The notes under the pieces: model-generated
Seen by the model: only the letters and a program-made list of their open reading frames with translations
Database searches by the model: none
Told to the model about the DNA's origin: nothing
Part shown: one piece after another, positions 13,516 through 17,822 of the stretch
How the letters are laid out: the number at the start of each line of letters is the position of its first letter
Numbering within the stretch: position 1 is the first letter of the stretch
Program-made: the position numbers and the translations under genes
DNA from: Candidatus Borkfalkia excrementavium
Lineage (GTDB): Bacteria; Bacillota; Clostridia; Christensenellales; Borkfalkiaceae
DNA: 55,122 nt
Direction: 5' to 3'
Assembly: GCA_019115945.1 (NCBI GenBank)
Contig: DXCO01000024.1
Span: 1-55,122 of the forward strand

Positions 13516-14556
13516 GTGACAAAAAAAGTTGACGTCGGCGGCGCAGCCGTGGGCGGCGGGGAGCGAATCAAAATACAGTCGATGACGACGAGCGCGACTT
13601 CGGATACCGAGGCGACGCTCGCGCAGATCGCGCGTCTTGCGGGGGCTGGATGCGATATCGTGCGCGTTGCGGTGCGGGACGAGAAGGATGCGAAGGCGAT
13701 CCGCACGATTCGGGACAGGTCTTCGCTGCCCGTTGTCGCAGATATCCATTTTTCGGCGGATCTGGCGATTGCGGCCATCGAAAACGGCGCGGACAAAGTC
13801 CGCATCAATCCGGGAAATATCGGGGATGAAGATAAGATCGCGCGCGTCGCCGCCTGTATACGGGCGCACCGTATCCCCGTACGGGTAGGCTCGAACACGG
13901 GCAGTATCAAAAAGGAATTTCTCGAAAAATACGGGCGTAACGAATTCGCGCTCGTGGAAAGCGCCCTGGAAAATGCTCGTTTGCTGGAAAAATACGGGGT
14001 GGGCGACATCGTCGTTTCCGTAAAAGCGTCGGACGTGCCGCTTACCGTGCGGGCGTACCGCCTTTTGCACGGCCGCTGCGATTATCCGCTGCACCTTGGG
14101 GTAACGGAGGCCGGAACGAGAGAGAGCGGCATCGTCAAGAGCAGCATCGGCATAGGCGCTCTTTTATTGGACGGGATAGGGGATACGATCCGCGTGTCCC
14201 TTTCCGCAGACCCCGTCGAGGAGATATATGCGGCAAAACGCATTTTGCGCGCATGCGGAGCGGAAAAGGATTTTGCCGACGTCGTGGCATGCCCGACCTG
14301 CGGCAGGTGCGAATGGGACTGCATGGCGCTTGCGGAAGAGGTAGAAAAACGGGTATTCAAAGTTGCTAAAAAATGCAAGATCGCCGTTATGGGATGCGTG
14401 GTGAACGGCCCGGGCGAAGCGCGGGATGCGGATCTCGGCATTGCGGGCGGAAAGGAATATTGCGTCATTTTCCGTTTCGGCGTTCCCGTGCAGAGGGTTC
14501 CGGCGGAAAACGCGAGAGAGATATTTCTTGCTGAGTTGGACAGATTTTTAGGTTGA
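13516..14556 (+). CDS. ispG: HMBPP synthase of the MEP pathway
   Basis: IspG (GcpE) makes 4-hydroxy-3-methylbut-2-enyl diphosphate from methylerythritol cyclodiphosphate, a [4Fe-4S] enzyme of isoprenoid synthesis. The 346-residue protein has the TIM-barrel start IQSMTTSATSDTEAT and the cluster ligands Cys259 and Cys262 (CPTCGRC) and Cys294 (GCVVNGPGE). The start is GTG 13516 with AAGGAG upstream. The stop is 4 bp before the next gene. In many Bacillota ispG lies just before proS and polC, which fits the identity of the following gene. Confidence 0.95.
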   Translation: MTKKVDVGGAAVGGGERIKIQSMTTSATSDTEATLAQIARLAGAGCDIVRVAVRDEKDAKAIRTIRDRSSLPVVADIHFSADLAIAAIENGADKVRINPGNIGDEDKIARVAACIRAHRIPVRVGSNTGSIKKEFLEKYGRNEFALVESALENARLLEKYGVGDIVVSVKASDVPLTVRAYRLLHGRCDYPLHLGVTEAGTRESGIVKSSIGIGALLLDGIGDTIRVSLSADPVEEIYAAKRILRACGAEKDFADVVACPTCGRCEWDCMALAEEVEKRVFKVAKKCKIAVMGCVVNGPGEARDADLGIAGGKEYCVIFRFGVPVQRVPAENAREIFLAELDRFLG

Positions 14557-14560
14557 ATTT

Positions 14561-16102
14561 ATGAACGGAGAAGAGTTTATCGGCCGCGTGCGCGAACGGG
14601 AATGTTTCGCGCATGCGATATTACATAAGATCACGGTGTACAGATCGGAAAAACGATGCGAGTTTTCGTTGATCACGGACCGCGCGTATACTGAGGAGGA
14701 TGAAAAATATCTTTCCGAAGTCGTGTGCGAGGCGGCCCCGCAGCCGCTCGCCGCGTCCGTATCGATCGTAAAGCAGAACGCCGACCCGCAGATCGTGCGG
14801 AATAAGATCATCGAATATCTGAAAGCGTCGCACAATGCCGCCGCCGCGTTTGTTTCTGCGGAGGATATCGGCGTTTCGGATGAAGGGAACAAGATCCGTT
14901 TCTCTTTCGGGGTGGATGCGGCCGAACGCAGTTTTTTCGAGACGAGAAATATCGTCGCTTCGGTGGAAAATATGCTGCGGCATAATTTTTGCGGCGAATT
15001 TTTCGGCGAATTAATCTATAAAGAGAAGGCTCAGCCTGCGGAGGATGAGGACGCCGCCGCTTCGGACGAGGAAGAGGAGGTCGCCGATTACAGGCCGGCA
15101 AGGACTTTCAAAATACATGATTTTGAACCCATCGATTTTGCGGACGTGCCCAAAACCGCGACCTATATCCGCGACTGTAATTTCCGTTCCGATTCTCTTA
15201 CCATTTGCGGCGAGATAGAATTTATTCAGGAGCGCACCTCGCAGAAGGGAAAGCCTTACTTGCGGTTTACCGTTTCGGATACGACGTCGCGCATGACGTT
15301 TTCTTATTTTCTCAAAAAGAAGACGGAGGAGCGGATCCGTGCGCTGAAGGCGGGGGACAAAATCGTGTGCACGGGAGAAAACAGCATGTTCAACGACAGA
15401 CTGAGTTTTACCGCGCGCTACATCAATCTCGGCAGTCCGCCGCCCGATTTCCAGCCGGAAAAACTTCCGAGCAAGGCGGCTCCTGCAAGATACGTTACCG
15501 TCGCGCCCGAAAAATTTACCGATTACAATCAGATCAATATGTTCGACGCCAGCGAGATCCCCGAATGCCTGAAGGAAAAGACGTTCGTCGTGTTCGACCT
15601 GGAAACGACGGGGTTGGTGAATATCCCCACGAACGGCAAAATGGACGCGATCACGGAGATCGGCGCGGTCAAGATCATCGGGGGAGAGATCCGCGAGAAA
15701 TTTTCGACGCTGGTCAATCCCGAGCGGAAACTGGACGAGGAGATCGTGCGCCTTACGGGCATCACGGACGATATGGTGAAAGACGCGCCGAAAATTGCCG
15801 CCGTAATTCCCGATTTTTATAAATTCTGCGAAAACTGCATTCTGGTCGGGCACAACGTACAGTTCGATTTCCGCTTTATCCAGTATTACGGCGCGCAGGA
15901 GGAGTATACCTTCGATCAGAAAACGTACGATACTCTGTCCATCGCCCAGTCCTTTTTGTTCCTGAAAAATTATAAATTGGATACGCTTGCAGAGCATTAC
16001 GGGATCGTGTTCAACCATCACCGCGCATGGGACGACGCTTTGACGACCGCAAAAATATTTATTGAACTGATAAAAGCGAAAAAATGCTTGCCAAACGGCT
16101 GA
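14561..16102 (+). CDS. PolC-derived protein: N-terminal and OB domains plus DEDDh exonuclease, no polymerase
   Basis: The 513-residue protein matches the first part of Gram-positive PolC: an N-terminal domain (ILHKITVYRSEKRCEFSL near residue 20), an acidic linker (about 155-175), an OB-fold (about 190-285), and a 3'-5' exonuclease with all DEDDh residues: D345/E347 in FDLETTG, HNVQFD near 431-436, H487 and D492. LTGITDDMVKDAP is a close PolC signature. The PHP domain, palm, fingers and thumb are missing, and the frame ends normally before rimP. It stands in the usual polC place between ispG and rimP-nusA. It may be a proofreading or repair exonuclease, with replication done by another polymerase encoded elsewhere. 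Confidence 0.85.
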   Translation: MNGEEFIGRVRERECFAHAILHKITVYRSEKRCEFSLITDRAYTEEDEKYLSEVVCEAAPQPLAASVSIVKQNADPQIVRNKIIEYLKASHNAAAAFVSAEDIGVSDEGNKIRFSFGVDAAERSFFETRNIVASVENMLRHNFCGEFFGELIYKEKAQPAEDEDAAASDEEEEVADYRPARTFKIHDFEPIDFADVPKTATYIRDCNFRSDSLTICGEIEFIQERTSQKGKPYLRFTVSDTTSRMTFSYFLKKKTEERIRALKAGDKIVCTGENSMFNDRLSFTARYINLGSPPPDFQPEKLPSKAAPARYVTVAPEKFTDYNQINMFDASEIPECLKEKTFVVFDLETTGLVNIPTNGKMDAITEIGAVKIIGGEIREKFSTLVNPERKLDEEIVRLTGITDDMVKDAPKIAAVIPDFYKFCENCILVGHNVQFDFRFIQYYGAQEEYTFDQKTYDTLSIAQSFLFLKNYKLDTLAEHYGIVFNHHRAWDDALTTAKIFIELIKAKKCLPNG

Positions 16103-16143: not shown

Positions 16144-16194
16144 TTGAGAGTGGGTGACCGCTCTCAAATCTTTTTATGCGGGGCTTTCTCCGCA
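16144..16194 (+). promoter_or_regulatory. Structured rimP leader
   Basis: A perfect 8-bp hairpin GAGAGTGG/CCGCTCTC (one G-U) closes a GTGA tetraloop (16146-16165) and is followed by TCTTTTT, resembling an attenuator. A second hairpin TGCGG/CCGCA (16177-16194) ends right at the GGGAGGAG ribosome-binding site of rimP. A leader hairpin in front of rimP-nusA is common in Bacillota; NusA-dependent control is an inference. Confidence 0.55.
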
Positions 16195-16205
16195 GGGAGG
16201 AGACT

Positions 16206-16679
16206 ATGAAAGTGATGCCCGAAAGGGAGATAGAGCAGGCGCTTTTGCCCGTTGCGGAAGAGATCGGCGTCGAAATTTACGAGGTCGTTTTCAAACAGGG
16301 AAAGTTTCCGTCTCTGACCGTCTACATCGACACGGACAGAGAGGGCGGGATCGATCTGGATACCTGCGAAAAATTCCATAATGCGATCGACCCCGTTCTC
16401 GACGGGTTGGACCCCACATACGGCGCGGCTTACACGCTGAACGTGAGCAGCCCCGGGATCGACAGGCCCTTCAAGAAGGATAAAGATTTTTTCCGTCATA
16501 TCGGGAAAAAGGTCGAGATCAGGCTGTATGCGCCCGTTAAAGGCGAAAAATTTTTCGAAGCGGTTCTTTTGGAATATAATCCCGCGGCCGGAAATATTTC
16601 CGTCGACAAGGGCGGGGAAACGCTCAAACTGAATCTTTCGCAGATTTCAAAAATTTCGGAAGCAATCGAATTTGACTGA
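16206..16679 (+). CDS. rimP: Ribosome maturation factor RimP
   Basis: RimP assists 30S subunit maturation. The 157-residue protein has the two-domain layout with the LNVSSPGIDRPFKKDKDF signature near residue 80. I chose ATG 16206 because GGGAGGAG lies 5 bp upstream; a longer frame from 16176 would start within the leader hairpin. It opens the rimP-nusA-ylxR-ylxQ-infB-rbfA series, 48 bp before nusA. Confidence 0.95.
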   Translation: MKVMPEREIEQALLPVAEEIGVEIYEVVFKQGKFPSLTVYIDTDREGGIDLDTCEKFHNAIDPVLDGLDPTYGAAYTLNVSSPGIDRPFKKDKDFFRHIGKKVEIRLYAPVKGEKFFEAVLLEYNPAAGNISVDKGGETLKLNLSQISKISEAIEFD

Positions 16680-16727: not shown

Positions 16728-17822
16728 ATGGTTAACAAGGAGTTTTTTCTGGCGTTGGCGGACCTTGAGGCAGAAAAGGGGATCAGCAGCGAGATATTTA
16801 TCGATGCATTGCGTAATGCGCTTGTTTCGGCGTACAAAAAACAGTACGACGGCGGGGCAAGCAATGTCGAAGTGAGCCTGAACCCCGAAAAGAGTTCGAT
16901 CAAGTTTTACACCGTCAAGACGGCCGTCGAGGAGGTAACCGATCCCGAAAAGGAGATCTCTTTGGCGGCGGCGCAGCAGATCAAAAAGAGTTATAAACTC
17001 GGCGACGAAGTCCGTGAGGAGTTCGTGCCGAAGGATTTCGGAAGGATCGCCGCGCAGACGGCAAAACAGGTGATCCTGCAAAAACTCCATGAGACGGAAC
17101 GCGACAATACCCTGAGCGAGTTTTCAGACAAAAAGGACGAACTGATGAGTTGCGTCGTACGGAAAGTAGACGCGAAGAATGTTTACGTCGAACTCGGCAA
17201 GGGGCAGATCGAAGGCGTAATGCTGCCGCAGGATCAGACGCCCGGCGAACACTACAACGTGAACGACCGGCTCAAAGTCTACGTAAAAAACATCAAAAAC
17301 AACGGGCGCAATGCGCAGGTGCTCGTGTCGCGCACCTCTGCGGGGCTCGTAAAGAGGCTGTTCGAAGAGGAAGTTCCCGAGATCAAATCGGGTGCGGTTG
17401 TGATCAAATCGATTTCCCGCGAGGCCGGTCAGCGCACGAAGATGGCGATCGCCGCGGAGGATCCGCAGGTGGATGCCGTCGGCGCGTGCGTGGGCAACAA
17501 GGGTGCCCGAGTGAACGCCGTCGTTGCGGAACTCGGCGGGGAAAAGGTGGATATCATTTTGTGGAGCGAAAATCCGCTCGAATTTATCGCAAAAGCGCTT
17601 TCGCCCGCTAAGGTGATTTCCGTGACGCAGGTGGACGAAAAGTCGGCGATCGCCGTCGTGCCCGACGACAAACTTTCCCTTGCGATCGGAAGGGACGGAC
17701 AGAATGCCCGCCTTGCCGCGCGTTTGACCGGCTGGAAGATCGACGTGAAGAGCGAGAGCGCCGCCGCAAAACTCGAGGCGCTGCGCGCGGCCGAAGAGAA
17801 CAGCGAAACTGCGGAAGAATAA
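16728..17822 (+). CDS. nusA: Transcription elongation/termination factor NusA
   Basis: NusA binds RNA polymerase and nascent RNA to modulate pausing, termination and antitermination. The 364-residue protein has the N-terminal polymerase-binding domain (about 1-125), an S1 domain (about 135-200) and two KH domains to about 345, including VGACVGNKGARVNAV and AIGRDGQNARLAARLTGW. It lacks C-terminal acidic repeats, as usual in Bacillota. GAGGAG precedes the ATG. Confidence 0.96.
   Translation: MVNKEFFLALADLEAEKGISSEIFIDALRNALVSAYKKQYDGGASNVEVSLNPEKSSIKFYTVKTAVEEVTDPEKEISLAAAQQIKKSYKLGDEVREEFVPKDFGRIAAQTAKQVILQKLHETERDNTLSEFSDKKDELMSCVVRKVDAKNVYVELGKGQIEGVMLPQDQTPGEHYNVNDRLKVYVKNIKNNGRNAQVLVSRTSAGLVKRLFEEEVPEIKSGAVVIKSISREAGQRTKMAIAAEDPQVDAVGACVGNKGARVNAVVAELGGEKVDIILWSENPLEFIAKALSPAKVISVTQVDEKSAIAVVPDDKLSLAIGRDGQNARLAARLTGWKIDVKSESAAAKLEALRAAEENSETAEE

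Follow-up and report, generated by a model that had tools for sequence, protein, structure and literature searches.

A stand-alone protein derived from the front half of PolC at the polC locus of Candidatus Borkfalkia excrementavium and its relatives

The window, the whole 55,122-nucleotide stretch of DNA analysed here, comes from the draft genome of Candidatus Borkfalkia excrementavium (1.55 Mb, 42 contigs, 89.8% complete). On its plus strand, positions 14,561–16,102 hold a gene for a 513-amino acid protein derived from PolC, defined by its open reading frame, Pfam and NCBIfam matches, and profile alignment. Its upstream neighbor is ispG (gcpE; 13,516–14,556, plus strand; Pfam GcpE, E = 9.7e-138), which ends 5 bases from the start of the frame. 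Downstream are rimP (16,176–16,679, plus strand; RimP_N, 2.7e-18) and nusA (16,728–17,822, plus strand; TIGR01953, 5.4e-119). The initial annotation of this DNA had placed the gene between ispG and rimP–nusA, the usual site of polC, and had described a frame that ends cleanly. The coordinates and the Pfam and NCBIfam assignments of the neighbors agree with the placement, and the frame runs from ATG to TGA and stops 73 bases short of rimP. Just upstream of rimP, positions 16,146–16,175 contain a short inverted repeat (gagag...ctctc) and, after it, a T run; an Rfam scan of this segment gave no family at the gathering threshold.

The protein is composed of three domains and a linker. A PolC-type N-terminal domain spans residues ~1–155 (14,561–15,025, plus strand), as seen in hhalign comparison with PolC and in an AlphaFold2 model, and is followed by an OB-fold domain at residues ~195–300 (15,143–15,460, plus strand), supported by hhalign and by a Pfam tRNA_anti-codon match at 214–288 (1.8e-5) that falls slightly short of its cut-off. 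The linker upstream of the exonuclease contains a clamp-binding-type motif, Q324-I-N-M-F328 (15,530–15,544, plus strand), recognized by its conservation in homologues. The DEDDh 3′–5′ exonuclease domain occupies residues 343–500 (15,587–16,060, plus strand), where Pfam RNase_T matches with E = 1.0e-37 to 1.4e-36, and carries the catalytic residues D346, E348, D436, H487, and D492. All five had been recognized beforehand, with the first two numbered one too low, as D345 and E347. The LTGITDDM motif reported earlier is present in the translated frame, and the by-eye alignment of the three domains with those of PolC is supported by profile alignment. The PHP and polymerase parts described as missing have no Pfam match in the protein at E 0.001. 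In NCBIfam, the model for PolC-type Pol III matches best, scoring 175 bits where its cut-off is 873, with the strongest stretch over the exonuclease. The AlphaFold2 model has a mean pLDDT of 82 and a pTM of 0.45, with pLDDT below 50 at linker residues 322–327. Among solved structures, the best match by sequence is the Thermotoga maritima PolC exonuclease (2p1j, 1.2e-35) and the best by fold is Enterococcus faecium PolC (9qpc).

Judged from its sequence, the gene is the orthologous remnant of polC, and we regard PolC descent, which the initial annotation had proposed, as established by profile alignment, tree, and synteny together. Against a profile of 30 full PolCs (L159, L160, and L050 left out; the stand-alone profile in the same alignment omits L136), hhalign gives the full protein a probability of 100 and E = 4.8e-86, colinear from the N-terminal domain to the exonuclease. 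The N-terminal domain and OB-fold alone reach 99.7 and 1.1e-25. The first PHP piece is skipped in the alignment and, as Pfam also indicates, the exonuclease is not inserted in a PHP domain, unlike the PolC arrangement. A tree built from 133 exonuclease domains (duplicates L152–L157 removed) sets PolC and stand-alone rows apart from 13 of the 16 other DEDDh rows with an SH-aLRT of 97, while the other three (L146, L144, and L020, the last with a branch length of 7.9) stray among them. The stand-alone rows do not form one clean clade (4 changes), nor do they nest with the PolCs of their own order. The tree lacks resolution within the PolC and stand-alone group, and it is the locus rather than the tree that argues against transfer from elsewhere. 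An ordinary DnaQ or DinG exonuclease was considered and rejected on the exonuclease tree and the profile match of the N-terminal domain and OB-fold; PolC exonucleases are nearer (1.2e-35) than E. coli epsilon (1.4e-14).

The stand-alone protein occupies the usual PolC site. Among 56 further stand-alone loci fetched from other genomes, 49 have ispG, 42 have rimP or nusA, 35 are flanked on both sides, and all 56 on at least one side; some of these regions are cut off by the end of a contig, and rimP is 1.3–2 kb distant in a few (L109 and L129, for instance). Nine regions with full PolC behave alike, with ispG in seven (~3 kb away in L153), both sides in five, and neither in two. Three proteins deserve separate mention. 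L136 (G030, family f30) is a diverged protein of 443 amino acids with intact catalytic residues and no linker motif that is placed among PolC exonucleases, and is perhaps an independent truncation. L160 (G131, f11) and L159 (G012, f13) are full-length PolCs whose exonucleases score low against the profile, at 37 and 103 bits; perhaps the exonuclease has degenerated there while the polymerase stayed intact, the opposite of the case in the window.

Sixteen families of the window's order have stand-alone homologues of about 440–550 amino acids at the polC locus. Members of the order include Candidatus Borkfalkia, placed by NCBI in Christensenellales; sister families keep a full PolC at the same locus. 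The first relatives gave 10 loci with best-segment identities of 26–72%, the closest from Candidatus Borkfalkia stercoripullorum, and nine hold a full protein, while L018 starts at a contig end. Of 60 regions then chosen from other genomes, 56 hold the stand-alone protein and four hold other exonucleases (L084, L138, L139, and L140; frames of 190–450 amino acids). An assembly error or local truncation is rejected on this count, since the combination of a stand-alone protein with no PolC polymerase is seen again in genomes given as 95–100% complete. The survey of related polC loci proposed with the initial annotation therefore extends the case by 56 loci. Sampling the order at 151 genomes gave 54 whose PolC exceeds the family cut-off and four that contain large pieces of PolC (G027, G048, G062, and G108). 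The stand-alone protein was read in 71 of the remaining 93 (the window's genome, the 56 fetched, and 14 of 16 from a set of weak matches), and the 22 outside this reading include incomplete genomes from PolC-bearing families.

Of 396 genomes in the order, 388 have matches to a profile of 45 members, full PolCs included, and those listed cover nearly the whole model in frames of 506–759 amino acids. Beyond the order, the class (277 genomes) and the phylum (298 genomes, nine of which belong to the class) give no full-length match among the matches listed; the strongest of these cover only the exonuclease in PolC-sized frames, and weaker ones are other DEDDh proteins. Some Clostridia of other orders, 97–100% complete, have no match to the exonuclease profile, for example G151 (f34), G163 (f46), and G193 and G220 (f38), and are possible further losses of PolC that left no remnant.

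The sole polymerase-core match in the window's genome is one DnaE, a 1207-amino acid frame that passes the PRK06826 and PRK05673 alpha-subunit cut-offs. The PolC profile otherwise finds only the 513-amino acid protein and, weakly, a 330-amino acid exonuclease on contig C11, so that the genome-wide search suggested at the outset yields one DnaE and no full-length PolC. A split PolC with its polymerase encoded elsewhere is rejected for this genome, as just DnaE pieces match. The C11 protein (L020:3795–4784) is a distant DEDDh protein with a weak PRK06195 match and is the only other DEDDh protein in an RNase_T search of the genome. Across the sample of the order, PF07733 matches mostly once in genomes that lack PolC and mostly three times in those that have it. 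Eight PolC-lacking genomes have two matches (G064, G084, G085, G096, G105, G128, G137, and G146), and five of the 151 have none, two of them (G041 and G130) at 93–96% completeness.

We call the DnaE of the window's genome DnaE1 because it carries QMSLF and the signature of an active PHP, and because Clostridia are reported, in the accessible portions of two surveys, to have DnaE1 (PMC3919608, PMC12926913). All 21 DnaEs read from the PolC-lacking branch keep the PHP signature HHDHEHCDH, so that DnaE1 may proofread by itself, and 20 of them, all except L207, have the internal clamp motif. In a DnaE tree computed without one variable loop and without an outgroup, the 21 from PolC-lacking genomes fall on one side with an SH-aLRT of 100. 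The other side consists of 20 DnaEs labelled PolC-positive by family, among which G039, G065, and G104 have no PolC over the cut-off in their own genomes (G065 and G104 being 81–88% complete). A single loss of PolC at the base of the branch would be the simplest reading of this topology. A loop in the polymerase core of DnaE, compared across L019:4791–8411 and L193–L232, measures 55–81 residues in the 21 PolC-lacking cases and 49–52 in the 20 others.

The linker between OB-fold and exonuclease is 34–53 residues long (84 rows). A pattern Q..[LIMF][FL] lies 21–26 residues upstream of the first catalytic Asp in 61 of 66 homologues, compared with 17 matches in 32,032 amino acids elsewhere in the same proteins and a frequency of 4% in shuffled linkers; the narrower Q..[LIM]F is found in 45 of the 66. 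Near-copies are included in this set (L012–L015, L112/L113, L106/L110, and L017/L122, for example), which means that the sequences counted do not each represent a separate event. In the window's protein the motif reads QINMF. The available text of PMC12309361 gives the clamp-binding consensus as QL[S/D]LF or QxxLF, with QADMF used by E. coli alpha. The third residue of QINMF is Asn as opposed to the Ser or Asp of the consensus, and the case for clamp binding is that of a five-residue pattern. In full PolCs of the order, the segment between OB-fold and exonuclease is 89–99 residues long and contains the pattern in none of 30, whereas a C-terminal clamp motif is present in all 33 (including L050, which ends in QISLF) and in none of 84 stand-alone proteins. 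From these opposite distributions, the clamp motif seems to have been relocated to the linker upon loss of the polymerase. The window's genome encodes a sliding clamp in one 376-amino acid frame on contig C2, and the linker motif presumably binds it.

In the first sample, the catalytic DEDDh residues are intact in all 66 homologues. Members with a dead exonuclease were sought later in 24 genomes picked mostly for weak matches, from which 16 full-length frames were read. In fifteen of them no more than one of the five catalytic residues is left (L236–L246, L248, L249, L253, and L261; alignment detail is uncertain in such diverged domains), making them pseudo-exonucleases, while L235 keeps DEDDh. 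Seven of the dead members are from f19, three from genus g84 of f32, and five from f16; the catalytic site is intact in L265 and L266, also of f19. All 15 adjoin ispG, and 12 also adjoin rimP and nusA, the loci being short. As to whether a small DnaQ-like exonuclease may have replaced the dead domain, a further match in the exonuclease region is found in 12 of their 15 genomes, with none in G047, G088, and G135. On a tree of the N-terminal domain and OB-fold (without L136 and L017, a duplicate of L122), in which several branches are long, the dead state needs three changes, at least two of them forced by strong branches. The whole protein thus appears to have been kept with a lost active site in at least two and probably three lineages.

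The linker motif follows the active site. Its strict form is present in 63 of 69 active members (61 by script; L265 and L266 by eye), the exceptions being L092, L096, L112, L113, L136, and L235, and in none of the 15 dead members, several of which show weaker remnants such as QMNFV and QSSLY. Six dead pairs show a lower pN than pS in each of the three domains, with dS near saturation. In four active pairs the exonuclease has the lowest omega of the domains, 0.018–0.092. The motif therefore accompanies catalysis, the remainder of the protein seems to have some other use, and exonuclease activity is unlikely to be the sole role of a protein that some lineages retain with a dead exonuclease.

We consider it probable that the protein is tethered to the clamp and proofreads in trans for DnaE1, having been formed from the front half of PolC after the polymerase was lost in the ancestor of the branch. 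DnaE1 would have become the sole C-family replicative polymerase in the ancestor of this large branch. PolC would have lost its PHP, polymerase, and C-terminal parts, with the N-terminal domain, OB-fold, and DEDDh exonuclease staying as a replisome subunit. The first PHP piece would have given way to a flexible linker, whose newly gained clamp-binding motif would substitute for the lost C-terminal one. Tethered by this motif to the sliding clamp beside DnaE1, the exonuclease could remove mispaired 3′ ends in trans. Given the PHP signature in every branch DnaE and the internal clamp motif in nearly all, two proofreaders are proposed: the PHP of DnaE1 in cis and the PolC-derived protein in trans from the clamp. 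In Bacillus subtilis, as the accessible text of PMC5627055 describes, the PolC exonuclease corrects DnaE errors in trans within a stable template–DnaE–PolC complex; such a service would vanish with PolC unless its front half stayed. Together with the clamp-type motif in the linker, this precedent strengthens the earlier suggestion of a subunit acting in trans with another polymerase. Exonuclease activity, clamp binding, and proofreading for DnaE1 are what we infer for the protein in the window.

Other functions could be served by the same parts. A clamp-type motif and an intact DEDDh site suit any clamp-directed nuclease, and an intact DnaE1 PHP could proofread alone, so that the protein might instead be the 3′–5′ exonuclease that performs excision in mismatch repair, or in a different post-replicative pathway, with a repair complex as its client. 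Retention of the PolC N-terminal domain and OB-fold speaks against this repair role, as does the service that the B. subtilis PolC exonuclease already gives DnaE in trans (PMC5627055, as far as its available text goes), and we hold it to be quite unlikely. A decaying PolC relic without present function could account for active sites lost in some lineages. It is contradicted by a frame that stays open and full-length at the same locus in 16 families, by the unbroken DEDDh set of the first sample, and by purifying selection and a new conserved motif, which leave it very improbable.

The dead members bear most directly on a structural adaptor, in which the N-terminal domain and OB-fold would be the essential parts, holding single-stranded DNA or a partner within the replisome, and the exonuclease a dispensable addition. 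Fifteen full-length proteins in three families, all beside ispG and with low pN relative to pS in every domain, are what such an adaptor predicts, whereas complete catalytic residues throughout the first sample and the lowest omega in the exonuclease of all four active pairs are not; as a full explanation it is unlikely. An older structural role besides proofreading is nevertheless part of the best reading. More specifically, and tentatively, it is possible, if short of probable, that the replisome consists of a single DnaE1 and the PolC-front-half subunit, whose core task is structural, its N-terminal domain and OB-fold organizing the clamp, DnaE1, or single-stranded DNA, with clamp-tethered proofreading added, so that death of the exonuclease let the motif erode while the scaffold was kept. 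The initial proposal that the polymerase was reduced to a stand-alone protein accordingly stands, as a change that is old and branch-wide, while the exonuclease as its only role does not, given the 15 dead members retained.

Proofreading subunits that act in trans are a known kind; the descent and build of the one proposed here would be new. The protein shares with PolC-type Pol III the order of N-terminal domain, OB-fold, and DEDDh exonuclease and the ispG–rimP–nusA locus, and differs in lacking the PHP, the polymerase core, and the C-terminal clamp motif, with a linker motif instead. In the proposed model it would resemble E. coli DnaQ/epsilon as a separate DEDDh exonuclease with an adjacent clamp-binding-type motif that serves DnaE. 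It differs from epsilon in its N-terminal domain and OB-fold, in a sequence nearer to PolC, and in a motif upstream of the exonuclease; that of epsilon lies after it. The trans proofreading of B. subtilis involves a complete PolC and DnaE3 as partner, according to the accessible account (PMC5627055), whereas here the front half alone survives. A non-canonical DnaQ of mycobacteria likewise acts as a further proofreader beside an active PHP in a DnaE1-only system, and is set apart by description only, in that the available account in PMC12926913 gives it neither PolC descent nor the N-terminal half. The same article contains no word beginning 'Christensenell'. Published surveys recognize, in their accessible text, DnaE1-only, PolC + DnaE1, and PolC + DnaE3 combinations (PMC3919608, PMC12926913), and PMC3919608, to the same extent, reports clostridial PolCs without an exonuclease, the reverse of the present case, and Clostridia with a single DnaE1. 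Among the best-ranked matches in the openly accessible literature, no title or opening of an abstract describes a stand-alone PolC remnant.

If the proposed reading is true, a large branch of gut bacteria would plainly have rebuilt its replisome, with a replicative polymerase that lost its polymerase part surviving as an accessory subunit, which suggests a new way to build one in bacteria, outside the three published combinations. With intact and dead exonucleases side by side and the PHP intact, this branch offers a natural experiment on the proofreading of DnaE1. Ibezapolstat is a PolC inhibitor, as the available parts of PMC11963600 and PMC12592400 state, and genomes of this branch can appear polC-positive though the polymerase targeted by such inhibitors seems to be absent.
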